A stretch of DNA of 32,629 nt from Akkermansiaceae bacterium (lineage in GTDB: Bacteria > Verrucomicrobiota > Verrucomicrobiia > Verrucomicrobiales > Akkermansiaceae): the NCBI GenBank assembly GCA_011524615.1, contig WTJZ01000112.1, positions 1 through 32,629 of the forward strand, in the 5' to 3' direction. The position numbers and the translations under genes are program-made. The notes below the pieces were generated by a model. It did no database searches, was not told where the DNA came from, and saw nothing but the letters and a program-made list of their open reading frames with translations. This document shows, piece after piece, positions 8,452 through 25,433 of this stretch. Positions within the stretch are counted from its first letter, which is position 1. Each line of letters opens with the position of its first letter.

Positions 8452-9207
8452 ATGGCTAATCTCTTCCCACGCTGGACGAACTATGTCCCACTGAAACTGG
8501 CAATATGCGCTGGTATTGCGGGTATTGGTATCATCGCAGCCTTCACATATTACGCTACGCCTGATACGCAGCGCGTAGGTTACATGCCGTCACAACCGAT
8601 TCCATACAACCACGAGTTGCACGTACAGCAACTTGGGTTGGATTGTCGTTATTGTCACAGCTTCGTCGAACACTCAGGTCATGCAAACGTGCCATCTGCA
8701 AACACCTGTTGGAACTGTCACCAGCACGTAAAAACGGATTCTCCTAAACTGGAGCCGCTTCGCAGAGCTGTTGATGAAACATACGAAAACTACGACGGTA
8801 AGCCGATCGAGTGGGTTCGTGTTCACAGAGTTCCTGATTATGCATACTTCAACCACTCAGCACACGTAAACCGTGGTGTCTCATGTGAGTCATGTCACGG
8901 AGAAGTACATGAGATGGAAGAGGTCTACCACGCTAAGTCTCTTACTATGGGATTCTGTCTCGAGTGTCACAGAAATCCTGAGAACAACATCCGTCCTCTC
9001 GAAGAGGTGTACAACCTAGATTACGACGCAGATACCTACCTCGCGGAGAATCAAGAAGTAGCGGATCTCGTTGAAGCATTTATCTCTAATGACGAAGTAC
9101 TCAGTGAGAAGGCTGGTAAGCTCAGCTCACAGCAGAAGCTTGGTCACTACCTTAAGAATCACTGGAACGTGCAGCCTAAAGAGTCCTGCGCAACCTGTCA
9201 CCGTTAA
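8452..9207 (+). CDS. actA: Alternative complex III pentaheme cytochrome c subunit ActA
   Basis: N-terminal TM; five CXXCH motifs (CRYCH, CWNCH, CESCH, CLECH, CATCH); followed by actB-F. Confidence 0.92.
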   Translation: MANLFPRWTNYVPLKLAICAGIAGIGIIAAFTYYATPDTQRVGYMPSQPIPYNHELHVQQLGLDCRYCHSFVEHSGHANVPSANTCWNCHQHVKTDSPKLEPLRRAVDETYENYDGKPIEWVRVHRVPDYAYFNHSAHVNRGVSCESCHGEVHEMEEVYHAKSLTMGFCLECHRNPENNIRPLEEVYNLDYDADTYLAENQEVADLVEAFISNDEVLSEKAGKLSSQQKLGHYLKNHWNVQPKESCATCHR

Positions 9208-9230
9208 TCCATACAGCAGTATATAATATA

Positions 9231-12200
9231 ATGAGCAAAAGAGTTTTACATCATCCTGAAGTTCCTGCGGACGAGGCTGCAACTAATGTTTGGAGAAGCA
9301 TCCGTGAACATGAGGATACAATTAAGTTTAGACACGAAGCGATTCGTGAATTCTACGATGAAGAAGACACAATGAGCGACGAAGAGCGTGATCTATCACG
9401 TCGTAACTTCGTTAAACTCATGGGGGCATCTACTGCACTTGCAGGTCTTGGTCTCGCATCATGTCGTCGTCCAGAGGCGTATATCCTTCCATACGCTGAC
9501 GCACCAGAGTGGGTTGTTCCAGGACGTCCACTCCTCTACGCTACGACGATGCCGTCAGCGGGTGCGAGTGTTCCACTTCTCGTTAAGTCATACGAGTCTC
9601 GCCCAACACTCCTTCAGCCTAACACGTCTCACCCTGATAACATGGGGACAGACTCACACGTTCAGGCTTCTATCCTCAACCTTTACAGCCCATCACGTTC
9701 GCAAAGCTTCCTTAAGGACGGAGCGAAGGTAGATAAGGCAGAGTTCGACGCATTCTTCGCTGGAGTGCAGAAGAACGCTGGTAAGCTTGGTGTGGTCTTC
9801 GGTTCTGACGAGTCTCCTACTCGTAACCGTCTCGCTAAGGCTCTCGCTAAGAAGTTCAGAGGTATCAAGTTCTACTCGTATGAGGCACTTGAAAACGACG
9901 CGGCAAACAGCACGATCGACAAGGCATTCAATGCGAATGGCGTTAAGCTAGTTCCTCAACTGAAGAAGGCTGACCGTATCCTTTCACTCGACAGTGACTT
10001 CATCGAGCTCGATGCCAAGTCATCTGCTCTTGATTACTCTAAGAAGCGTCAAGGTGGTGGTGATAACTACGACCAAGAAGTAGATGAGAAGAAGATGAAC
10101 CGTCTCTACCAAGTAGAGTCAATCTTCTCACTCACAGGTGGTATGGCTGATCACCGTCTCCGTGTAGCTCCATCAGAGGTTTCTAAGATCGGGGTAGCAG
10201 TAGCGATCGAGGCGAATAAGACTCTTAAAAATGATAAGCTTGCTAAGGCACTTGCTGGACTTAAAGCTGACATCAAGCCAGCTGGCGAAGGTGAAGAAGC
10301 TGAGAAGTACGCTAAGTACCTCAAGGAGTGGGTAGCAAACTGTGCTAAAGACCTCATCTCTAAGAAAGGTAAGTCACTTGTTCTCGTTGGTACTCAACAG
10401 CCTGCTGAACTCCACGCACTCGGTCTTGCTCTTAACGAGGCTCTTGGCTCATTCGGTAGAACGCTTAAGGCATACGCTTCTAAAGGATCTAAGCTGGGAA
10501 CTATCTCAGACCTTAAGGCTGACGTTGATGCTAAGAAGGTTGATTCACTTCTCATCCTTACGCCATCTAACCCACTCTTCGATGCTCCAGCATCAGTAGA
10601 CTTCGCGGGTATCCTTAAGGATGTTGAGTTCTCGATTCACGTTGGTGAGCGCACAGATAAGACGGCGTTCGGTTCATCATGGCACGTTCCAGCAACTCAT
10701 TACCTTGAGAGCTGGGGAGACACGGTATCATCAAACGGTGCATACTCAGTCATCCAACCACTCATCCTTCCTCTCTACCCTAACACTTTCTCAGAGGTAG
10801 ATATCCTTACTGCGCTTCTTAAAGGTGGGACACTTGCTGCTCCTACGGCACAAGAGCCATCAGCAGGATACTACGAAGTGAAGGCTACCTTCGCAGCAGA
10901 AGTATCAGGTAGTGCATCAGCATGGAACGAGCTTCTTAAGACCGGTTTCAATAAGAAGTCAGTACTTAAGCCTGTATCATTCACAGGGGTAGCATCACAG
11001 AAGGCACTTGCTGAGCGTTATGCAACAGCTCCTTCAGCAGAAGCACTTGAAGTCATCCTTGCTAAGGACCACTCAATCGCTGACGGTCGTTACATCGACA
11101 ACGCTTGGCTCCAGGAAGCTCCAGACCCAATCGTGAAGCTTACATGGGACAACGCTGCTATCGTTTCTCCTAAGACCGCTAAAGAAATCGGCGTATATGA
11201 CAAGATCGTTGAGCTTGAGAAATGGAATGCAGGTCGTCCAGAGATCGGTGAAGCATCACAAGCAAGAGCACCAAAGGCTAAGATCACTGTTGACGGTGTC
11301 GAGGTTGAGATTCCAGTACTCGTTGGCTTCGGTCAAGCAGACTACACCATTACCCTTCCTGTTGGATATGGACAGGGTGCCGATGATGAGCGTAATTCAG
11401 CTGATAAGTTTGACGCGAATGCTCCTACCGTAGGTCACGTTGGTCTCAACACAGGTTTCAATGTTTACCCACTTCGTAAGGAAGCATCTGAATTCCTCCT
11501 CAAGGGAGCGAAAGTAGAGCCTCTTAAGGAAACATACAAAGTTGCTTCTACTCAAGAGCACCATGCTATGTACGGACGTGCGCTTGCTCGTGAGATCTCA
11601 ACGCATGAGTCAAACCACGCTAAGGGAGACTACCAGAAGCAACTCGACAACGTCGCGAAGCAGGGAATGGACTCTCACATTCCACCAAACATCCCACTCT
11701 ACAAATCGAAGGATAAGGAGCAAAAGAGCCTCCTCAGCGATGAGATCCACCAGTGGGCGATGACCATCGACCTTAACACCTGTACAGGTTGTAACGCATG
11801 TTTGATCGCGTGTCAGGCAGAGAACAACATCCCAGTAGTAGGTAAGGAGCAAGTTGCTCGTGGTCGTGAGATGCACTGGATCCGTATGGACCGTTACTAC
11901 GCGTCACAAGAGAACGAGTATGATGATCACGGTCACATGAAGGATAAGAAGACTCCATCATGGATCTCTGATAACCCAGCTATGATTCCTCAGCCGGTAG
12001 CATGTACTCAGTGTGAGTCTGCACCATGTGAGACCGTATGTCCGGTGAATGCTACTGTTCACACCGAGGAAGGTCTCAACGCAATGGCTTATAACCGTTG
12101 TATCGGTACTCGTTACTGCGCGAACAACTGCCCATTCAAGGCTCGTCGATTCAACTTCTTCGACTACAACAAGCGTAACCCAATCATCAAGAAGAACCTC

Positions 12201-12659
12201 TACAGAGGACCATTCGGTGAGAAGCAAGTTGGTAGCCCAGAGCACCTCCAACGTAACCCGAACGTTTCTGTTCGTATGCGTGGTGTCATGGAGAAGTGTA
12301 CATACTGTGTGCAAGCAATCGAGCTCGCTAAGATCAAGCAGAAGCAAATCACTAAGAAGAAGGCAGAAGCTGCTGGTCTCTCAGTAAACGCGATCATCTC
12401 TAAGGAAGATCTCCGTGTGCCAACAGATGCTGTGAAAGTAGCATGTCAGAGCGCATGTCCTTCTGACTCGGTTTCATTCGGTAACCTCCTCAACAAGGAA
12501 GATAAGGTAAACCGTGCGAAAGGCAGCAAGCGTAACTACGAGCTCCTCAAGTATATCGGTACGTTCTCACGTACGACATACCTTGCTCGTGTGAAGAACC
12601 CTAACCCAGCAATGCCAGATGCTAAGTACATCGGTCTTGCGACTATCAACATCCACTAA
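9231..12659 (+). CDS. actB: Alternative complex III ActB: fused molybdopterin-oxidoreductase-like plus Fe-S subunit
   Basis: Tat-like '[12 protein letters not shown]' plus 'LASC'; ferredoxin-like cysteine clusters '[20 protein letters not shown]', '[17 protein letters not shown]', '[23 protein letters not shown]', 'CTYCVQ', '[10 protein letters not shown]'. Confidence 0.95.
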
Positions 12660-12670
12660 TCTCTGATCCC

Positions 12671-14158
12671 ATGGCAACAGATTCATCAACAAAAACTGCA
12701 GGAGAGCGTAAGGGACCAAAAATTCCGGTTCTTCTACGTGAAGAGCTTATCCTTAACAACCGCTCCTACAACTGGATCACAGAACGTATCTGTGGTATTG
12801 TTGAGAAGCCACAGCCTAAGCTCTGGTGGCTCCTCTTCATCCCATGTGCATTAATCGCTGCGATTGGTGTTGGGTTCGGTCTAACGTACCTCGTATCTAC
12901 TGGTGTAGGTGTATGGGGTAACTCGAACCGCGTTATGTGGGGTTGGCCGATTGTTAACTTCGTATTCTGGATTGGTATCGGTCACGCTGGTACGCTGATC
13001 TCCGCTATTCTCTTCCTGACGAGGCAGAACTGGCGTACCTCTATTAACCGTGCCGCAGAGGCGATGACGATCTTCGCGGTATGTTGTGCAGGTATCTATC
13101 CAGTCTTCCACGTTGGTCGTGTATGGATGGTGTGGTTCCTCGCTCCGATCCCAAATGCGAACGCAATTTGGCAGAACTTTAAGTCGCCACTCCTCTGGGA
13201 CGTATTCGCGGTATCTACCTACTTCACTGTATCGGTGATCTTCTGGTACCTCGGTATGGTTCCTGACCTCGCGACCCTTCGTGACCGTGCGAAGAGCAAG
13301 ATCTCACAGATCCTCTATGGTATCTTCTCTCTCGGATGGCGTGGATCTAACCGTCACTGGCAACACTATGAGGTAGCATACCTCATCCTGGCGGCGATCT
13401 CTACTCCACTCGTACTCTCAGTACACTCGATCGTATCATTCGACTTTGCTACCTCAGTAGTACCAGGATGGCACACCACGATTTTCCCACCATACTTCGT
13501 AGCTGGTGCGGTATTCGGCGGATTCGCGATGGTACTCACGATCATGATCCCGGCTCGTTCACTCTACGGCCTTCACGACATGATCACGATGAAGCACATC
13601 GACAACATGGCTAAGATCATCCTTACGACTGGTACAGTTGTAGGTTACGCATACCTCATGGAGCTCTTCGTAGCATTCTTCTCAGGTGCTAAGTACGAGG
13701 CGATGGCATTCACGTATCGTCTCACAGGTCCAGAGGCCGCTGGTTACTGGCTCATGATGTCATGTAACGTGATCTCCCCACAACTCTTCTGGTGGAGAGC
13801 ATGCCGTGAGAACCTCTGGGTTGTTATGGGTGTTTGTATGGCAGTTAACGTTGGTATGTGGTTCGAGCGTTTCGTGATCATTGTAACGACTCTCCCACGT
13901 ATGTGGCTCCCAGGTGACTGGAAGACATATGACCCAAGTGCAGTGGACGTATTCACGTTCGTTGGTACGATCGGTATGTTCCTCACCCTATTCAGCCTCT
14001 TCCTCCGCTTCCTCCCATGTATCAACATCGCAGAGGTGAAGTGGACGCTTCCTCAGAGTGATCCTCACCATGAAGATAAGGAAGAAATCGAAGACGACGG
14101 CATCGAAGTCATTCCTACTTACCAAAGAGAAATCGACAACGGAGCAACAAAAGCATAA
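12671..14158 (+). CDS. actC: Alternative complex III ActC, NrfD/PsrC-like multi-TM subunit
   Basis: Polytopic NrfD-like protein in canonical position after actB ('[34 protein letters not shown]'). Confidence 0.93.
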
Positions 14159-14178
14159 CCCTAACCTAATATTTTACA

Positions 14179-14733
14179 GTGAGCAAATCAGTTAAAAAAG
14201 TATACGGCTACCTTGCAGAGATTGAGACTCCGTCGAAGCTCTGGAAGGCATGTGAAAAGTGTCGTGACGCTGGATTCAAGAAGTGGGATGCGTTCTCTTC
14301 GTTCCCAGTTCACGGTCTGGACAAAGCGATGGGGCTTAAGAAGTCGATCCTTCCTTACCTTGTATTCTTTGGTGGTCTTACCGGTATCACTACCGGTTTC
14401 CTCCTCGCCTACATCACACAGGTACAGATCTACCCAACCGTAGTACAGGCTAAGCCTGCTAACATCTTCACAGTAGCAGCATTCTTCCCGATCATGTTCG
14501 AGCTTACAATCCTTCTCTCAGGATTCACCACGCTCTTTGGACTACTCGGACTTATGGGACTTCCTCGTCTGAACCACCCTCTCTTTGCTTCTAAGCAGTT
14601 CAAGAGAGTAACAGACGACGGTCTCTACATCGCGATCGAAGCGCGTGACCCTAAGTTCTCTCCAGAGGCAACTAAGGCGTTCCTTGAAGAGATCGGTGGA
14701 TATAACATCGAACTCGTAGAAGACGACGAATAA
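14179..14733 (+). CDS. actD: Alternative complex III ActD (DUF3341-type)
   Basis: GTG start; 'YGYLAEIETPSKLWKACEKCRDAGFKKWDAFSSFPVHGLDKAMGLK...' typical ActD N-terminus; two TMs. Confidence 0.92.
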   Translation: MSKSVKKVYGYLAEIETPSKLWKACEKCRDAGFKKWDAFSSFPVHGLDKAMGLKKSILPYLVFFGGLTGITTGFLLAYITQVQIYPTVVQAKPANIFTVAAFFPIMFELTILLSGFTTLFGLLGLMGLPRLNHPLFASKQFKRVTDDGLYIAIEARDPKFSPEATKAFLEEIGGYNIELVEDDE

Positions 14734-14765
14734 GCATCAACACAACACTTTAGAATCTATTCGAT

Positions 14766-15413
14766 ATGATCAAATATTTCTTAATCATCTTTACTGCTAT
14801 TGCAGTGCTTATCATGGGCGTATTCGGCTTCAGAGGCCGTAAGTTCCGTGACACTCCAGTACGCCTCTTCCCAGATATGGAAGTGATGGACAAGGTCCAG
14901 GGGCAGATGGATAGCGAATTCTTCGCTGACGGTGTGGCATCACGTCCACAAGTTCCAGGAACAGTTGTTCACTCAGCTGACTCTAGCATCTACTCAATCG
15001 AGTTCGGTGAAGGTCGTGAGGGTTACTACTACGAAGGTAAGTTCGGCGACTACTTCGGTGCAGGACTTCCTAAGGAGCTTAACCTCAATAAGGACAACAT
15101 CGAGGCATTCCTCGGTCGTGGTCAAGAGCGCTACGGTATCTACTGTGCAGTATGTCACGGTGAAGCTGGTGACGGCGCAGGTGTAACGAGCAAGTACGGT
15201 ATCGCAGGTATCGCGAACTTCCACGCTCCTAACTACTCAGCATCACAATATCCTGACGGACGTCTCTATGACGTAATCACTAACGGTAAGGGGAACATGA
15301 GCGGATACGGATACAACATCCCAGTCGCTGACCGATGGGCAATCGTTGCCTACGTGCGTGCTCTCCAAAACGCGAAAAACATCCCTCTCTCGGAGGCAAC
15401 AATCACAGAATAA
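14766..15413 (+). CDS. actE: Alternative complex III ActE monoheme cytochrome c
   Basis: N-terminal TM, 'MEVMDKVQGQMDSEFFADGVASRPQVPGTV', CAVCHGEAGDGAG heme site, distal 'GNMSGYGYNIPVADRWAIVAYVRALQ'. Confidence 0.92.
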   Translation: MIKYFLIIFTAIAVLIMGVFGFRGRKFRDTPVRLFPDMEVMDKVQGQMDSEFFADGVASRPQVPGTVVHSADSSIYSIEFGEGREGYYYEGKFGDYFGAGLPKELNLNKDNIEAFLGRGQERYGIYCAVCHGEAGDGAGVTSKYGIAGIANFHAPNYSASQYPDGRLYDVITNGKGNMSGYGYNIPVADRWAIVAYVRALQNAKNIPLSEATITE

Positions 15414-15437
15414 ACGTAACACTACACATTTAATACT

Positions 15438-16841
15438 ATGGGACACTTTGTTACATCAGCAAATATACCAGTAGATGGTGAAAAGCTTACTCACCCACTG
15501 GTGAAGACGCTTAAGCTAGTATCTGCTGCCGTTGCCGTAATCGGTCTTGGCGTTGGAGCCTTCATTTGGTTCGGTCAAGAAGACGAAGTCGTTAAGGGAT
15601 CATACACGTACTCTTACCTCTTCGGATTTACCTTCTTCCTTACACTCGCTATTGGTGGGTGTTTCTGGACTCTTCTTCACAACGTTTCTAACTCAGGTTG
15701 GGGAACGTCTGTTCGTCGTATCTTTGAGAACCTTGGATTTGTATTCCCATTCATGTTCATTCTCATGATTCCATTCTTCTTCCCAGACTTCCAGAAGTAC
15801 CTCTGGGAGTGGCTAACGATCTTCAACGACGTTACAGCTGCTGAAGGTGTGAGCCGTTACGCTGGTACTCTTACACTCTTCGGTGCTGAGGTTCCACATG
15901 GCGGATTCTACGGAACAGTAGGCAACTCAGAGCTCCACTACGGACTCATGGATAAGCATGAAGCTATCCTTGATACGAAGTCATGGTACATGAACCCAGT
16001 GGCTTGGTACATCCGTGCGGTATTCTACTTCGCGTCACTCGGCTTCGTGATCTGGCACATGAGAAACCTCTCAGTGAAGCAAGACACAGACCCGAATCCA
16101 GGCGTTAAGAACCTCTTCACTGCTCGTGCACACGCATCATGGGGGCTCCCAATCTTCGGTGTCGCACTGACCTTCTGGGCATTCGACTTCGTCATGGCTC
16201 TCGATTATAAGTGGTTCTCTACAATGTGGGGTGTCTACTTCTTCGCAGGATGTGCGATGTCTTCAATGGCTCTCATCATTCTTACTGTGATCACGCTTCG
16301 CCGTCTCGGTTACCTTAAGCACGTTGTCTCAACAGAGCACTTCCACCTCATGGGTAAACTGAACTTCGCGTTCGTTGTCTTCTGGGCATACATCACATTC
16401 TCTCAGTTCTTCCTCTACTGGTACGCTAACGTAACAGAGGAGACGTCATACTACCTCCTTCGTAATACAGAAGGCTGGAACATTGTTAGTATCTGTCTCG
16501 TATTTGGTCACTTCGCACTCCCAATGCTCGGTCTTATCCGTCAGGACGTGAAGAAGAACATGACCTACATGACGGTTATGACAATCTATCTTCTTACCAT
16601 CCACATGGTAGATGTATACCACATGATCATCCCAGAGCGTGCACCATCACTCTCCCTCATTCTAGGTCTAGGTGATATCCAACTCTGGTTCGGTGAATTC
16701 AAGTCATGGGGATGTGACATCCTCGGCTTCATCACCATCGGAGCAGCGTTTGTCTTCTTCTACCTTAATAACCTTACCTCGGTTGCGCTCTACCCACACC
16801 GCGACCCACGTATCCTCGAATCTGCTAACGTACACAACTAA
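15438..16841 (+). CDS. actF: Alternative complex III ActF, NrfD/PsrC-like membrane subunit
   Basis: Polytopic, ~10 TM segments, canonical position after actE. Confidence 0.9.
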   Translation: MGHFVTSANIPVDGEKLTHPLVKTLKLVSAAVAVIGLGVGAFIWFGQEDEVVKGSYTYSYLFGFTFFLTLAIGGCFWTLLHNVSNSGWGTSVRRIFENLGFVFPFMFILMIPFFFPDFQKYLWEWLTIFNDVTAAEGVSRYAGTLTLFGAEVPHGGFYGTVGNSELHYGLMDKHEAILDTKSWYMNPVAWYIRAVFYFASLGFVIWHMRNLSVKQDTDPNPGVKNLFTARAHASWGLPIFGVALTFWAFDFVMALDYKWFSTMWGVYFFAGCAMSSMALIILTVITLRRLGYLKHVVSTEHFHLMGKLNFAFVVFWAYITFSQFFLYWYANVTEETSYYLLRNTEGWNIVSICLVFGHFALPMLGLIRQDVKKNMTYMTVMTIYLLTIHMVDVYHMIIPERAPSLSLILGLGDIQLWFGEFKSWGCDILGFITIGAAFVFFYLNNLTSVALYPHRDPRILESANVHN

Positions 16842-17211: not shown

Positions 17212-18678
17212 ATGTCAAACGACCAAACTAATACACTAGATGCACGTCTCCGTACGGCTATCGATAAGTCGGTCAGCAACCCAGTGATGTTCTTCTTCAC
17301 GACCGGTGCTCTCTGGCTTGTGGTATCGATCCTCCTCGGGGTGCTTGCGTCACTTAAGTCACACTGGCCAACGTTCTTCGAAGCGTTTGGTGAACTCAGC
17401 ACCGGACGTGCATATGTAGCACACCTCAATGTCCTCATCTACGGATGGTGTTTCCCTGCTGCATTCGGAGCGATCATCTGGTTCATGTCTCGTCTCTGTC
17501 GTAAGGAGTCAAAGCATGCTGGTATCATCGTTGCCGCTGGCCTCGTATGGAACTTCGGTGTAGTAATCGGCCTCCTCGGTGTCATGCTCGGTAAGAGTAC
17601 AGGTGTACCTTGGATGGAGTTCCCTAACCAATGTTGGGTGATCTTCCTCTTTGCTTACATTCTCATCGCGATCTGGAGCTTCGTACAGTTCCGTGTTCGT
17701 GAGGGTGGCCATGTTTATATCTCACAGTGGTATATTCTTGCAGCGCTCTTCCTCTTCCCTTGGATCTTCTGTTCTGCTCATATCTTCACATTTGTCTTCG
17801 ACGGACATCCTGTGATGACAGCAGCGGTAGCAAGCTGGTTCAAGTCGTCGATCGTGAACCTCTTCTTCATCCCAGTAGCAGCAGCTTCTGTGTACTACAT
17901 CGCTCCTAAGGTAACAGGACGTCCAGTACACAGCTACAGCCTAGCGCTCCTCGGATTCTGGACTCTCATCATTCTCGGTGCATGGGGCGGTATCCAAAAG
18001 CTTACTGGTGCTCCACTCCCAGCGTTCATGCCTTATGTCAGTGCGGCTGCGGGTGTTCTCTTCTTCATCCCTGCGTTGACGATCGGATACAACATCCTCA
18101 TGACGACTAAGTCTCATCATGATCTCGCTAAGAAGAGTCCTTCACTCCGCTTCACTGTTGCGAGTGTGATTGCTCTCATCGGAATGGGAGTTGCTGGTGT
18201 ATTCCTCAATCTCCCAAGTGTTATGAGAGGGACTCAGTTCAGTCTCTCTGGATATGGTTACGAGATCCTTGCTCTCTACGGTGTCTTCAGCATGAGCATG
18301 TTCGCAGCGATTTATTACATCGTACCACGTGTAACTAAGCGTGAGTGGCTCGCTCCGTCTTTCATCCGTACTCACTTCAACCTTTCAGCGTACGGTGTCA
18401 TTGCAGTCGTGATGGGATCAATCCTCGGCGGATACCTCCAAGGCGCAGCTGTTGAAGCGATCGACCAACCATTTAGCGACGCGAAGGCGACGGCGTACAT
18501 GATCAGTATCTTTAACTCGATTGCTTGGGTGATCATTCTGATCTCGAACCTCGCATTCCTCTTCCACATTCTCTTAATGGCAGTACGTCTCGGCCGTCAC
18601 AGCAAGCACGCTACTCTCATCGAGGAACATCACGGGTCATCACCACACGGTGCAGATGGCAAAGTTAACAACTACTAA
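17212..18678 (+). CDS. cbb3-type oxidase subunit I (CcoN)-like protein lacking most metal-ligand histidines
   Basis: ~12 TM segments; CcoN-like signature 'SVYYIAPKVTGRPVHSYSLALLGFW' and 'AHLNVLIYGW' (His71 retained). Canonical GHNAVGF, GPHHLHYTALPDW and DWTIGHVHxGALG are replaced by KSSIVNLF, GGIQKLTGAPLPAF and SLSGYGYEILALYG. Confidence 0.75.
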   Translation: MSNDQTNTLDARLRTAIDKSVSNPVMFFFTTGALWLVVSILLGVLASLKSHWPTFFEAFGELSTGRAYVAHLNVLIYGWCFPAAFGAIIWFMSRLCRKESKHAGIIVAAGLVWNFGVVIGLLGVMLGKSTGVPWMEFPNQCWVIFLFAYILIAIWSFVQFRVREGGHVYISQWYILAALFLFPWIFCSAHIFTFVFDGHPVMTAAVASWFKSSIVNLFFIPVAAASVYYIAPKVTGRPVHSYSLALLGFWTLIILGAWGGIQKLTGAPLPAFMPYVSAAAGVLFFIPALTIGYNILMTTKSHHDLAKKSPSLRFTVASVIALIGMGVAGVFLNLPSVMRGTQFSLSGYGYEILALYGVFSMSMFAAIYYIVPRVTKREWLAPSFIRTHFNLSAYGVIAVVMGSILGGYLQGAAVEAIDQPFSDAKATAYMISIFNSIAWVIILISNLAFLFHILLMAVRLGRHSKHATLIEEHHGSSPHGADGKVNNY

Positions 18679-18687
18679 TTTAATCTC

Positions 18688-19371
18688 ATGTCATTTCAAA
18701 AATTTACACTCGGTTTAGTAGCAGCCTTTGGTCTCCCATGGCTTCTCCTCATCGCGGTTCCATTCGGAACGACGCGTAACATTGATGCTCCTGAGTTCGA
18801 CGAGGACAAGGATGGTAGAACAGGTCTCTACGAGACAGCGTCACGCACAGGTCGTGTTGCTAATGGTTCTGAAGTATACGGCGCGAATGGTTGCTACGTG
18901 TGTCACACCCAAGTGATCCGTCCTACGAACGCTGGTAATGACCTCTGGCGTGATGCTTGGGCTGGTCAGAAGAACGATGACACTAAGAATGGTCCTCGTG
19001 AGTCAAATGCCTTCGACTACAAGGGCGAACTCATCGCTCACATCGGTCTTACTCGTAACGGTCCAGATCTCTCGAACGTAGGTTATCGCCTCGAGCAGGC
19101 GGCGGCAGCAGCAGGAGTATCTCCTGAAGATTACGTTTACCAACGTCTTCTTACGCCACGTGCTATCCTTGATAACTACGACTCGACCTGTCCATCTCAG
19201 CCACAGCTCTTCCGCCCAGCGAATGCATTTGGTCAAACGACTGAAGCATACCTTGACGCAGAAGGTAACAAGCTTGTCCCAGGCAAGTCTGCTAAGGCTC
19301 TCGCTAACTATCTCCTTAAACTTAAGAAGGACGATTTCATCCCTGACTCAATCAACTACAGTAGAGACTAA
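18688..19371 (+). CDS. CcoO (FixO)-like membrane-anchored monoheme cytochrome c
   Basis: N-terminal TM; 'NGCYVCHTQVIRP' typical of CcoO; 'TRNGPDLSNVGYRL'; 'PRAILDNYDSTCPSQPQLFRP' aligns with CcoO 'PRDVVPESNMPAYPWLF'. Confidence 0.8.
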   Translation: MSFQKFTLGLVAAFGLPWLLLIAVPFGTTRNIDAPEFDEDKDGRTGLYETASRTGRVANGSEVYGANGCYVCHTQVIRPTNAGNDLWRDAWAGQKNDDTKNGPRESNAFDYKGELIAHIGLTRNGPDLSNVGYRLEQAAAAAGVSPEDYVYQRLLTPRAILDNYDSTCPSQPQLFRPANAFGQTTEAYLDAEGNKLVPGKSAKALANYLLKLKKDDFIPDSINYSRD

Positions 19372-19399
19372 TCATCTCTTACTCTAACACATTCATCTC

Positions 19400-20182
19400 A
19401 TGTCAGATAACAATCAAAAACCAGATTTAAACGAGGATCTCAACGTACTAGATGCTCATGGAAATCTAGTCGAAGCGAGTGCAGCTAGCTCTCGTGAGAA
19501 TCAACTGCAGGAAAACGGCATGGAGCCGGTTTCTCTCTGGATCATCCTTGCATGCTTCGCAGGTGTTCTCGTCGCAGGTACTGTCCTCGGTAAGAGCGGA
19601 GTCCTCTCAGCTAACTCATACAATGAGTTCGTTGTCTCCGGATACACGCAAGCTGAACGCCCAGGCGGCGCAGAAGAGGTCATCGTCCCTGCGGCGATCA
19701 TCGACGTCTTCGCTAAGAAGGGTGCTAAGATCTACCAAGCAAAATGTCAGGGTTGTCACCAGCCTACAGGTCTCGGTGATGGCGCGAACTTCCCTCCTCT
19801 CGGTGGATCTGAGTGGGTACAGGGTGATACGTCAGCTCTTGCTCAGATCATCCTCAATGGTGTGATCGGACCAATCAAGGTCGCAGGCCGTACTTGGAAT
19901 GGTGCTATGCCAGGACAAGCTGCAGGTATGACAGACGAAGATCTCGCAGGTCTCATGACCTATATCCGTAATAGCTTCGGCAACGAGACAGGAGACGTGA
20001 TCTCGATCGAGATGGCATCAAATGCTCTTGCAGACTATAAGACGCGTATGGGACCAGCTCCAGTCGCTCCTCCAATTAAAGTTGCGGAGCTCGAAAGTAA
20101 GTATATGGTTAGCCTCAAGGGTGCAAAACTGGACCCAGCAACCAAAGTAAATCCAGAAACTCTTGAAGTAGTAGCAGAGTAA
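19400..20182 (+). CDS. Membrane-anchored monoheme cytochrome c (CcoP/cbb3-III-like domain)
   Basis: One TM; CQGCHQPTGLGDGANFPPLGGSEWV; Met ligand region 'NGAMPGQAAGMTDEDLAGLMTYIRN'. Confidence 0.85.
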   Translation: MSDNNQKPDLNEDLNVLDAHGNLVEASAASSRENQLQENGMEPVSLWIILACFAGVLVAGTVLGKSGVLSANSYNEFVVSGYTQAERPGGAEEVIVPAAIIDVFAKKGAKIYQAKCQGCHQPTGLGDGANFPPLGGSEWVQGDTSALAQIILNGVIGPIKVAGRTWNGAMPGQAAGMTDEDLAGLMTYIRNSFGNETGDVISIEMASNALADYKTRMGPAPVAPPIKVAELESKYMVSLKGAKLDPATKVNPETLEVVAE

Positions 20183-20213: not shown

Positions 20214-22070
20214 ATGAGTGCTAGCACATCACACGATCATCACGATCATCACGAACCTAACTTCCTCCAGAAGTATGTTTTCTCTACTGACCATAAGACA
20301 ATTGGTATTCAGTACGGAGTGACGGCTCTTCTCTTCATCGCGCTTGGCTTCTATCTTATGATGGTCATGCGTTGGTCAATCGCTTACCCACATGAGCCAC
20401 TCCCAGAGTGGATGTCATGGGTCTTCACTGAAGAATGGCGTGGCCGTTGGCTCCAAGACGGTAAAGTCACGGGCGAAACTTATAACATGTTCGGTGCTAT
20501 GCACGGAACTATCATGGTCTTCCTCGGCGTTGTACCTCTCGGCTTCGGTGCCTTTGGTAACTACGTTATGCCGCTTCAGATCGGTGCACCAGATATGGCG
20601 TTCCCTAAACTCAACATGATGTCATTCTGGCTCTACTTCGTAGGTGGTGCGATGATGGTTGCATCATTCTTCCTTGAGTCAGGTGCTGCTAAATCAGGTT
20701 GGACGAACTACCCACCACTTGCACAGATTGCAGACTCTCAGTTTGTGAATCAGCTCTTCACAGGGCAGACGCAGTGGCTCCTCGGTATGGTATTCCTCAT
20801 CTCCTCATCACTTCTCGGTTCTGTGAACGTGATTGTGACAATGGTGAACCTCCGTGCTCCTGGTCTTACTTGGTTCCGTATGCCGTTCTTCTGTTGGGCG
20901 ATGCTTGTAATCGCATTCCTTCTCCTCCTAGCCTTCCCTCCTCTTGAGGTTGCGGCGATCATGCAGGTGATGGACCGACTTACTGGATCTAGTTTCTTCA
21001 TGCCATCAGGCCTCTATACTGCCTCTGCAGGTGCGCTCGATGTCTCAGGTGGTGGATCTCCACTACTCTATCAGCACCTCTTCTGGTTCCTCGGACACCC
21101 TGAGGTATACGTACTCCTCCTCCCTGCGATCGCATGTGTGGCTGAGATTATCCCAACAAACACGCGTAAGCCTCTCTGGGGATACAAGTCAATGGTATGG
21201 GGTGTAATGGTTCTCGGTTTCCTCTCATTCATCGTATGGGCTCACCACATGTACCTCACTGGTATGGGACCAATGGTGTCTAGCTTCTTCCAGGTGACTA
21301 CAGTATTGATTTCCGTACCATCGGTAATCCTTCTGACCTCACTCCTTATCTCACTTTGGGGTGGATCGATCCGATTTAACCAACCAATGATGTGGGCTGT
21401 AGCCTTCATCCCGATGTTTGGTATCGGTGGTCTTACCGGTCTTCCTCTCGCATTCAACCTTGCGGATCTTCACCTTCACGACACGTACTACGTGATTGGT
21501 CACTTCCACTACGTTGTTGCTCCAGGTATTCTCTTCGGTCTCTTTGCTGGTATCTATCACTGGTACCCTAAGGCGACAGGACGTCACATGAACAACTTCC
21601 TCGGCCACCTTCACTTCTGGCCATCACTCATCTTCATTAACCTCGTCTTCTTCCCGATGCTTATTCAGGGGATGGCTGGTTTCCACCGTCGTTGGTACAA
21701 TGGTGGTGATGCATACCTCGAGAAGGCTGCTGATGGCGTGAACGTGTTCGGTCTCACCGTTCTTGAGAAGATCGACCTCAACATCCTCATGTCGACGAGC
21801 GCATGGTTCCTCGCTGCTGCTCAGATTCCATTCATCGTGAACTTCTTCACGTCATGGAAGACAGGTAAGAAGGTCGAGAATGATAACCCATATGATGCGA
21901 CGACTCTTGAGTGGGCGACTCCTACGCCTCCAGGACATGGTAACTTCGAGACTCTTCCTGAAGTATACCGTGGACCATACGAGTACAGCCGTCCAGATCA
22001 TGACGAAGATTACTACCCACAATGGCATGAGCCAGCGGTAGCTAAGAAAGAAGAAACTGCGGACCTATAA
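20214..22070 (+). CDS. ctaD: aa3-type cytochrome c oxidase subunit I
   Basis: 'MFGAMHGTIMVF', 'GHPEVYVLLLPA', 'WAHHMYLTGM', 'HDTYYVIGHFHYV'; His-rich N-terminus SHDHHDHHEPNF. Confidence 0.96.
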   Translation: MSASTSHDHHDHHEPNFLQKYVFSTDHKTIGIQYGVTALLFIALGFYLMMVMRWSIAYPHEPLPEWMSWVFTEEWRGRWLQDGKVTGETYNMFGAMHGTIMVFLGVVPLGFGAFGNYVMPLQIGAPDMAFPKLNMMSFWLYFVGGAMMVASFFLESGAAKSGWTNYPPLAQIADSQFVNQLFTGQTQWLLGMVFLISSSLLGSVNVIVTMVNLRAPGLTWFRMPFFCWAMLVIAFLLLLAFPPLEVAAIMQVMDRLTGSSFFMPSGLYTASAGALDVSGGGSPLLYQHLFWFLGHPEVYVLLLPAIACVAEIIPTNTRKPLWGYKSMVWGVMVLGFLSFIVWAHHMYLTGMGPMVSSFFQVTTVLISVPSVILLTSLLISLWGGSIRFNQPMMWAVAFIPMFGIGGLTGLPLAFNLADLHLHDTYYVIGHFHYVVAPGILFGLFAGIYHWYPKATGRHMNNFLGHLHFWPSLIFINLVFFPMLIQGMAGFHRRWYNGGDAYLEKAADGVNVFGLTVLEKIDLNILMSTSAWFLAAAQIPFIVNFFTSWKTGKKVENDNPYDATTLEWATPTPPGHGNFETLPEVYRGPYEYSRPDHDEDYYPQWHEPAVAKKEETADL

Positions 22071-22099: not shown

Positions 22100-23806
22100 A
22101 TGAACGAAAAAATTCTGGACGAAATTCCCTACATCGTCAATCCCCGTAAGGATACAGGTCTTTTTAACTCAAAGATCGGTATCTGGCTCTTCCTCGCCTC
22201 AGAAGTGATGCTCTTTGGAGGTCTCTTCTCTGGTTACATCTTCCTCCGCGTTTACGCTGACTATCCATGGCCAGAGCGTGTTCTTCCGATCCTTCCAGGT
22301 CTCGTGAACACCTTCATCCTCATTGCTTCATCGGTAACGGTGGTATTCGCATGGGCGATGCTCAAGCTTGGTAAGTGGAACATGTTCCGCCTCTTCATGG
22401 GGATCACCATTGCTTGTGCAGCGATCTTCATGGGCTTCAAGGTGGTTGAGTATAAGGCTAAGTTTGAGCACCAAGGTGTTCGTCTTGCTGACTACACGAT
22501 CCTAGAGGGTCACTTACATGCTGCGGACGTTGATTCTCACGGCCACATTGTACATGATTCTCACGGACACGATGCTCACGGCGAAGGTCATGACGCTCAC
22601 AAAGGTCACGACGACCATGGTAATAAGGAAGCTACGACAGTTCACACATCTGTGAACAACATCATCTTTGATGCGAAGAAGCTTACCTTCGACCTTACTA
22701 AGGTTGATGAAAAGTACCTCGAGACAATCCTTGAGCAAGCGGCAACGCATGATGCAAAAGTAACGTTCTCGAAGGATGTCTTCTCTCAATCTGAGCCAGG
22801 TGTGAAGCCTGTTAAGATCATCTCAGCTGGTGATGAACTCTCATACGAGAAGCTCATCGCTGCTAAGGAAGCATTCGTAGCGGCTCGTACGCACAACGCT
22901 GCAGAGCGTACAGCTGAACTTCGCCGCCTCTGGAAAGAGTCAAAAGCGGAGAACGAAGGTGTTGCTGGTTGGAAGCAAGCACAGGATATCGCTATCGATA
23001 CAGACAAGCTTGCACTCGTTCCTGCTAAGTCATCGATCTCAGCAACAGTTGAGCCACATATCTCATTTGTTTTTGCTCCGCAAAAGGTTAAGTCTTACAA
23101 TGCATCAAGCCTGACTCGTAAGGACGGAACAATGGTTGTCGGTAGCCTCCAGAAGTCTCCAATGGAGCTCGGAATCGACGCGGTTGATTTCACCTTCCTC
23201 GTTCAGCAAGCTGAAGAGATGGGAATCGACCCTGACGATGCGGTTGAGAAGGCATGGATCCTTTCGCACAGCCCTGCAGTGAAAGCGGCATGGGAGGAGC
23301 ACAAGAAGCATGTAGCTGCTATTGACGAAGCTTACTTCCAGGAAGCTCTCAAGAAGACTGATGGTGACGAAGAGAAGGCAAGAGAGATTGCTAATCACGT
23401 ACCAGAAGTTGAGAAGTACCGCATGACTTGGAAAGACCTTGTTCGTTATGGATCACATGGAGAGATCAATCTCCAGTGGTATGACGGATTCAAGGGTGCT
23501 AACCACAAGAATGAAGAGTGGGCAGCACACTTCCCAGACATCTCTATCCCTCGTGAGCAAATCGCGTTCGAGTCTAAGTTCACACCTAGATGGAACAACT
23601 ACTACGCGATCTACTTCACGATCACAGGACTCCACGGTCTTCACATCATTGGTGGTGCGATTGTACTAGGATACTACATGTTCTGCCCGAATATGTTCCG
23701 CAAGAACCCAACATGGCTCGCAAACCGTGTCGAGGTTGCTGGTCTCTTCTGGCACTTCGTTGACCTTGTTTGGATCTTCCTCTTCCCAATCCTTTACTTA
23801 ATGTAA
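22100..23806 (+). CDS. ctaE: Cytochrome c oxidase subunit III with ~370-aa hydrophilic His-rich insertion
   Basis: N-terminal 'KIGIWLFLASEVMLFGGLFSGYIFLR' and C-terminal 'NNYYAIYFTITGLHGLHIIGGAIVLGYYMF...VAGLFWHFVDLVWIFLFPILYL' are canonical COX III. They are separated by a long insertion after 'FMGFKVVEYKAKFEHQG'. Confidence 0.93.
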   Translation: MNEKILDEIPYIVNPRKDTGLFNSKIGIWLFLASEVMLFGGLFSGYIFLRVYADYPWPERVLPILPGLVNTFILIASSVTVVFAWAMLKLGKWNMFRLFMGITIACAAIFMGFKVVEYKAKFEHQGVRLADYTILEGHLHAADVDSHGHIVHDSHGHDAHGEGHDAHKGHDDHGNKEATTVHTSVNNIIFDAKKLTFDLTKVDEKYLETILEQAATHDAKVTFSKDVFSQSEPGVKPVKIISAGDELSYEKLIAAKEAFVAARTHNAAERTAELRRLWKESKAENEGVAGWKQAQDIAIDTDKLALVPAKSSISATVEPHISFVFAPQKVKSYNASSLTRKDGTMVVGSLQKSPMELGIDAVDFTFLVQQAEEMGIDPDDAVEKAWILSHSPAVKAAWEEHKKHVAAIDEAYFQEALKKTDGDEEKAREIANHVPEVEKYRMTWKDLVRYGSHGEINLQWYDGFKGANHKNEEWAAHFPDISIPREQIAFESKFTPRWNNYYAIYFTITGLHGLHIIGGAIVLGYYMFCPNMFRKNPTWLANRVEVAGLFWHFVDLVWIFLFPILYLM

Positions 23807-23841: not shown

Positions 23842-24189
23842 ATGGCAGCAGACTCACCAGAAGCTCTTAAAAAGCAACTTAAGCTCTATGCGGCAATCGG
23901 CGGATGTTTATTCATCGGAACGATTCTCACTGTAGCAGTAGCGGTTGTACCAGCTCTCGACTTCGGCGATCGTGGATTCTCACAAGGCGACCTTGTGATT
24001 GGTCTCCTCATCGCGTCCGTCAAGGCATCGCTCGTGATGTACATCTTCATGCACCTTAATCACGAGAAGAAGCTCATCTACCTTATCTATGGTATGTCAG
24101 GTTTCTTCGCGATTTGTCTCTACTTCCTCACCAAGCTCTCATTCATCGATCCTATCAAGTACGTAGGGTTCTTTACAGGCGGCGAATAA
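23842..24189 (+). CDS. Cytochrome c oxidase subunit IV (prokaryotic, CtaF/CoxD-like)
   Basis: 3 TM small protein with 'ASVKASLVMYIFMHLNHEKKLIYLIY' typical of prokaryotic COX IV. Confidence 0.85.
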   Translation: MAADSPEALKKQLKLYAAIGGCLFIGTILTVAVAVVPALDFGDRGFSQGDLVIGLLIASVKASLVMYIFMHLNHEKKLIYLIYGMSGFFAICLYFLTKLSFIDPIKYVGFFTGGE

Positions 24190-24641: not shown

Positions 24642-25433
24642 ATGACGACTCCCACAAAACTCTTCGGAATTCCAGAAAGCTTCTCCGAGCATGGAGGTCA
24701 GGTTGACCTCATGATTGACGTAGTACACTACTTCATGTTTGCTCTCTTCATTGGTTGGACAATCTTCTTCTTCATCTGTCTCTTCAAATTCCGCAAGAGC
24801 AACAACAAGAAGGCTTCTTACCATGGTGTTACGAACCACGTATCCACGCACCTTGAGATCGGTGTTGTGATCATCGAGGCTGTACTCCTTCTCGGTCTTG
24901 CTCTTCCTCTCTGGAAGGAAAGAACGGACAAATTCGACGAAGTACAGGCTCAAGACCCAGTACGTGCTCGTGTAATCGGTTATCAGTTCGCATGGAACTA
25001 CCACTACCCAGGTGCAGATGGTAAGTTCGGTCGTATTGACCGCCGTCTCGTAGCGAACGTAGGTGATCCATGTATTGACCCTAACGACCCTAACGGATGG
25101 GATGACTACACTAGTTCAGTACTGAAGCTTCCTGTAGACCGTCCAGCGATCCTTTCGATCACATCAACAGACGTTATCCATAACTACTCCATCGTTCCTA
25201 TGCGTATACAGCAGGATGCGATGCCAGGTAAGGACATCCCAATGTGGTTCAAGCCGATCAAGAAAATGGAGACGTTCGTCGTATGTGGACAGCTCTGTGG
25301 TGAAGGTCACGCGAACATGTCAGGTGTGATGGAAGTCATCTCACAGTCGAAGTTCGACAAGTGGGCTGAAGGCCAATCCAAGGAGTCTCTAGAGAAAAGC
25401 AAAGCAGCTCAAAAGACTGTTGCGTCTCTCTAA
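24642..25433 (+). CDS. ctaC: Cytochrome c oxidase subunit II (CuA domain, no fused heme c)
   Basis: Two N-terminal TMs; 'DVIHNYSIVPMRIQQDAMPG' and CuA motif 'CGQLCGEGHANMSG'. Confidence 0.94.
   Translation: MTTPTKLFGIPESFSEHGGQVDLMIDVVHYFMFALFIGWTIFFFICLFKFRKSNNKKASYHGVTNHVSTHLEIGVVIIEAVLLLGLALPLWKERTDKFDEVQAQDPVRARVIGYQFAWNYHYPGADGKFGRIDRRLVANVGDPCIDPNDPNGWDDYTSSVLKLPVDRPAILSITSTDVIHNYSIVPMRIQQDAMPGKDIPMWFKPIKKMETFVVCGQLCGEGHANMSGVMEVISQSKFDKWAEGQSKESLEKSKAAQKTVASL

Follow-up and report, generated by a model that had tools for sequence, protein, structure and literature searches.

The K-channel lysine is an accepted signature of type A oxidases and underlies models of how protons are taken up in the reductive phase. 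Type B and C oxidases have a K-type pathway without this lysine, and loss of the canonical K-channel has been described for archaeal A-family COX1, with seven losses in one of the scenarios set out there (Degli Esposti et al., 2021; PMC8239418). Here we describe a lysine-less aa3-type oxidase encoded in the window, by which we mean the whole 32,629-nucleotide stretch of contig WTJZ01000112.1 (GenBank assembly GCA_011524615.1) from an Akkermansiaceae bacterium. Its subunit I, CoxA, retains all of the D-channel residues that type B and C oxidases lack. It resembles the archaeal variants in having lost the canonical K-channel, but belongs to other lineages and is accompanied by a candidate replacement acid in subunit II, of which the main text of the archaeal study makes no mention (PMC8239418). 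Entire clades of oxidases lack the lysine, and two changes that the initial annotation of this DNA had missed track its absence: a Ser or Thr at position 356 of Rhodobacter sphaeroides (Rs) subunit I, hereafter Rs356, and, in subunit II, a carboxylate on helix 2. We call the lysine-less CoxA clade that includes CoxA 20214-22070 the window's clade, and residues marked Pd are numbered as in Paracoccus denitrificans. The relevant features of CoxA are as follows.

20214-22070, plus strand: CoxA, aa3-type oxidase subunit I, lysine-less variant, 618 amino acids, an uninterrupted open reading frame
20592-20594, plus strand: Asp127, D-channel entrance (Pd D124)
20946-20948, plus strand: Glu245 in helix V, an acidic residue almost exclusive to the window's clade
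21102-21104, plus strand: Glu297, D-channel end (Pd E278)
21108-21110, plus strand: Tyr299, cross-linked active-site Tyr (Pd Y280)
21312-21314, plus strand: Ser367, at the Rs A356 position
21321-21323, plus strand: Ser370, at the Rs T359 position, a retained K-channel hydroxyl
21330-21332, plus strand: Leu373, codon CTT, at the K-channel lysine site (Pd K354/Rs K362)
21336-21338, plus strand: Thr375, at the Rs F364 position; Thr/Ser here is peculiar to the window's clade

When CoxA was compared by phmmer with Pd and Rs subunit I of solved structure, helix VIII aligned without a gap and K354/K362 fell on Leu373, reproducing both the gapless alignment to P. denitrificans and the lysine-to-leucine replacement of the initial annotation. 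The same residue occupies the Pd K354/Rs K362 column of a MAFFT alignment. The annotation had the residue and its codon right, but its interval for the change, 21318-21335, covers P369-L374 only, and the 18-residue motif it quoted runs from V368 (21315) to S385. At the lysine site, Leu, Ile or Val is found in all CoxA relatives from the same genus to the same class (60-90% identity), so Leu373 is no local oddity and, judged by the close relatives with Leu or Ile, neither a sequencing error nor a chance change.

The remainder of CoxA resembles type A1. An AlphaFold model (predicted local distance difference test score, pLDDT, 90; predicted template modelling score, pTM, 0.91) finds P. denitrificans cytochrome c oxidase as its best PDB match (template modelling scores 0.79/0.90), and the enzyme shares with the Pd and Rs aa3 oxidases the fold, the metal ligands, the cross-linked Tyr, the full D-channel with Glu278, and a CuA-bearing subunit II with the entrance Glu. 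The active site is complete, with heme and CuB ligands H97, H295, H344, H345, H430 and H432 and with Y299, and all of the D-channel set D124, N113, N131, S134, S193, N199 and E278 (Pd numbering) is found; the D-channel Asp, the Glu of the GHPEVY motif and the cross-linked Tyr, noted as kept in the initial annotation, are D127, E297 and Y299. In the K-channel, Thr351 is replaced conservatively by Ser370 and Ser291 by Ala310, so that neither site carries the type A residue. Relative to Pd aa3, the changes are thus K354 to Leu, S291 to Ala, A348 (Rs A356) to Ser and, in subunit II, P85 to Glu79. Because the D-channel and active-site residues of type A are present and those of its K-channel are not (definition and D-channel residue set from PMC3084760), we class CoxA by its sequence as an A1-related variant without the lysine and not as a canonical member. 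Its score against the NCBIfam CtaD_CoxA equivalog TIGR02891 is 551 bits, below the curated cut-off of 670.75.

A public genome scan with the clade alignment placed the window's clade in at least six bacterial phyla (Verrucomicrobiota, Acidobacteriota, Planctomycetota, Fidelibacterota (Marinimicrobia), Elusimicrobiota and Hydrogenedentota), and Bdellovibrionota joined in later searches. Every member has Leu, Ile or Val at the lysine site, and the clade is recovered as one with 100% support in the Shimodaira-Hasegawa-like approximate likelihood ratio test (SH-aLRT) even when helix VIII is masked. Sampling of oxidases was guided by similarity, so row counts are not frequencies; the sampled genomes include many metagenome bins, and some alignment rows are repeat fetches of one gene. 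Three other groups lack the lysine: a Met clade with Met at the site (Myxococcota, Bdellovibrionota, Gemmatimonadota, Puniceicoccaceae and others), a Phe clade with Phe or Leu (Bdellovibrionota), and an Acidobacteriota group of 13 CoxA with Tyr, Phe, Ile or Val, nested among lysine-bearing oxidases.

Since the active site and D-channel are intact and conserved across phyla, the enzyme is presumably functional. The altered proton route that the initial annotation took to be implied is a fair inference on these same grounds. K362 mutants of the studied enzymes are nearly inactive, which would favor an oxidase that is impaired or weakly pumping and that lost the lysine through relaxed selection. 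We consider such an oxidase quite improbable, given that several phyla conserve the enzyme with intact ligands and D-channel and that most of the window's own family yielded no other CoxA-like match.

The window's, Met and Phe clades cluster together without significant support, and a tree in which the window's and Met clades are constrained together fits no worse (approximately unbiased test, p-AU 0.67); one loss may be shared by all three. A single origin for all lysine-less oxidases, tried as a constrained tree, was rejected (p-AU 0.013). With this rejection, and with the Acidobacteriota group nested among lysine-bearing oxidases, at least two losses follow.

The first of the tracking changes lies in subunit I. 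Rs A356, in the wall of the K-channel, is one of the residues that define this channel in R. sphaeroides (PMC9687966). Ser occupies this position throughout the window's clade (n=114 rows), the Met clade (n=42) and the Phe clade (n=12), and Thr in 13/13 rows of the lysine-less Acidobacteriota group, against Ala or Gly in 82/82 lysine-bearing rows. The 17 next-nearest retrieved relatives of the Acidobacteriota group all have Lys, and all have Ala or Gly at Rs356. Other K-channel positions fare differently in the window's clade, where Ser at Rs299 is mostly lost but the Glu at the channel entrance is retained, as is the hydroxyl at Rs359. This retention bears on the idea that the K-pathway is closed and the D-channel conducts all substrate and pumped protons. 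Almost complete conservation of the D-channel residues would suit that arrangement; the roles described in PMC8361435 speak against it, as does the persistence of the two K-channel groups just named, and we regard it as distinctly unlikely.

Four further residues, Glu245, Gln251, Gln360 and Thr375, are peculiar to the window's clade. Gln251 (20964-20966) and Glu245, both in helix V, are nearly invariant there and rare or absent elsewhere. Glu245 might be thought the true replacement of the lysine, as 110 of the 114 rows of the window's clade have Glu at this site and no lysine-bearing row does. The residue is not found in the other lysine-less clades, however, and topology would place it on the D-channel and not the K-channel side, within the P-side half of helix V. 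Its near confinement to one clade rules it out as a general replacement, and even for the window's clade we hold this role to be very improbable. In the Met clade, most rows have a Glu at Rs361, directly before the lysine site (motif PIAEM; L132, L138, L145 and L226-L254), which is another possible channel residue.

The second tracking change lies in subunit II, with the following features.

24642-25433, plus strand: CoxB, subunit II, carrying the CuA motif; residues 67-96 are predicted to form helix 2
24855-24857, plus strand: CoxB Glu72, aligned to the K-channel entrance Glu (Pd E78/Rs E101)
24876-24878, plus strand: CoxB Glu79, buried helix-2 carboxylate, proposed lysine replacement

The CuA site of CoxB includes CGQLCGEGHANM and His180, as in the CuA-bearing subunit II of type A. 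Glu79 lies in the middle of the predicted helix, seven residues past Glu72, at a position where the canonical residue is Pro (Pd P85, Rs P108). A carboxylate in helix 2 is found in 77/77 rows of the window's clade with readable CoxB (Glu, except for Asp in L199), as Asp in 38/38 rows of the Met clade, and as Glu in 12/12 rows of the lysine-less Acidobacteriota group with readable CoxB, whose lysine-bearing relatives have an acid inside helix 2 in 0/16 cases with readable CoxB. No genuine helix-2 carboxylate was found among 63 lysine-bearing rows; of three automatic matches, two were the entrance Glu and one came from the wrong segment. As judged from these alignments, the helix-2 carboxylate and Ser/Thr at Rs356 co-occur with lysine loss in at least two independent losses. 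In R. sphaeroides, E101 sits about 10 Å below K362 in height (PMC9687966); by helix geometry, an acid 7-11 places up helix 2 from the entrance Glu would therefore stand at or somewhat above the height of the lysine.

We propose that the aa3 oxidase of the window is functional, with its D-channel in place and a K-pathway remodelled to do without lysine, the subunit II carboxylate and Ser367 serving as substitute; to this reading we give an even chance. Protons would enter via CoxB Glu72, the usual K-channel entrance; Glu79 would act as a protonatable relay in place of the lysine and take up the reductive-phase protons, and the helix VIII hydroxyls of Ser370 and Ser367 would assist, with protons handed on to Tyr299. 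We infer that Glu79 faces the channel, that protons are transferred through it and that the enzyme pumps. The broader proposition, that at least two independent swaps in A-type oxidases exchanged the lysine for a buried carboxylate in subunit II helix 2 and Ser/Thr at Rs356, giving a working K-pathway free of lysine, we hold a little more tentatively, at somewhat less than an even chance.

Several points weigh against this proposal. In the Phe clade the helix-2 acid is an Asp closer to the P-side end. The register of Glu79 is fixed only to within about one turn: its place at +7 from the entrance Glu is equivalent to +10/+11 when the count starts from the Trp at the other end of the helix, and it is from this Trp (W-11 or W-12) that the helix-2 acids of the three groups coincide. 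The side chain of Glu79 is only presumed to point into the channel, and Rs P108, with which it aligns, is not among the subunit II residues listed as defining the K-channel in PMC9687966. Finally, the trees firmly support two independent losses only, and an independent-pairs test of the correlated changes had two pairs, too few for significance.

The main rival to a rebuilt pathway with a carboxylate relay is a water/hydroxyl K-pathway without any titratable relay, as in the B and C types, for which Ser/Thr at Rs356, Ser370 and nearby hydroxyls would be enough and in which the subunit II acid would serve elsewhere. Of the correlates of lysine loss, Ser/Thr at Rs356 is the most regular, even in the Phe clade with its acid elsewhere, and the B and C types do function without the lysine (PMC3084760). 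Such a pathway would leave unexplained why three lysine-less groups keep a helix-2 carboxylate without exception when no lysine-bearing row has one, and Ser at Rs299, a hydroxyl, is mostly gone in the window's clade; we think it rather unlikely, if less so than the other alternatives. The initial annotation had asked whether this is a known variant of its clade. K-channel loss in archaeal A-type oxidases is indeed published, and for this bacterial clade we found no report in the open-licence literature of lysine loss or of a compensating subunit II acid.

The remaining genes of the locus are as follows.

8452-16841, plus strand: alternative complex III (ACIII) genes actA-F, assigned by gene order and similarity
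17212-18678, plus strand: CcoN-like protein without the cbb3 active-site histidines
18688-20182, plus strand: CcoO-like and CcoP-like c-type cytochrome genes
22100-23806, plus strand: CoxC, subunit III, its two COX3 parts separated by a long insertion
23842-24189, plus strand: CoxD, caa3-type subunit IV

The order is actA-F, then the CcoN/O/P-like trio, then coxA. As in the ACIII-aa3 supercomplex of Flavobacterium (Bacteroidota), the aa3 genes adjoin ACIII genes. Lysine loss is independent of this linkage because, contrary to the initial suggestion that the ACIII-linked aa3 clade might share the change, ACIII-linked Bacteroidota aa3 all retain the lysine where CoxA has Leu373; many lysine-less loci, moreover, have no ACIII within the fetched flanks. 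A link to the CcoN-like gene is likewise not supported, since L123 carries such a gene beside a lysine-bearing CoxA. The CcoN-like protein of the window has lost the cbb3 CuB histidines and the second-half heme histidines (HNAV to SSIV, GPHHL to GGIQK, GHVH to GYGY) and therefore cannot form a normal oxidase. Histidine loss in CcoN was also noted for L207, L208, L212, L073, L074 and L076, and all six checked histidines are retained in L083. A degenerate CcoN in the same gene order occurs in Methylacidiphilum-like genomes with three or four pmoA-family genes, for which reviews describe an ACIII-adjacent cbb3 oxidase (PMC8498564, PMC6688271). Methylacidiphilum-like genomes also encode a second CoxA without the lysine (L209, L211), and the flanks fetched for it contain no recognisable CoxB. 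The CoxC insertion is about 360 residues long and includes a histidine-rich stretch. Elsewhere in the sample, Gly replaces the Asp of the D-channel entrance (Pd D124) in the CoxA of L067 and L089; that of L089 also lacks the K-channel lysine and may have lost both canonical inlets.

A widespread natural group of lysine-free oxidases, with named candidate substitutes found again in an independent lineage, makes the role of the K-channel lysine directly testable, and designs for rescue mutants of the model aa3 enzymes follow from the candidate replacements. It also counsels caution in annotation, in that oxidase type should not be assigned from the K-channel lysine.
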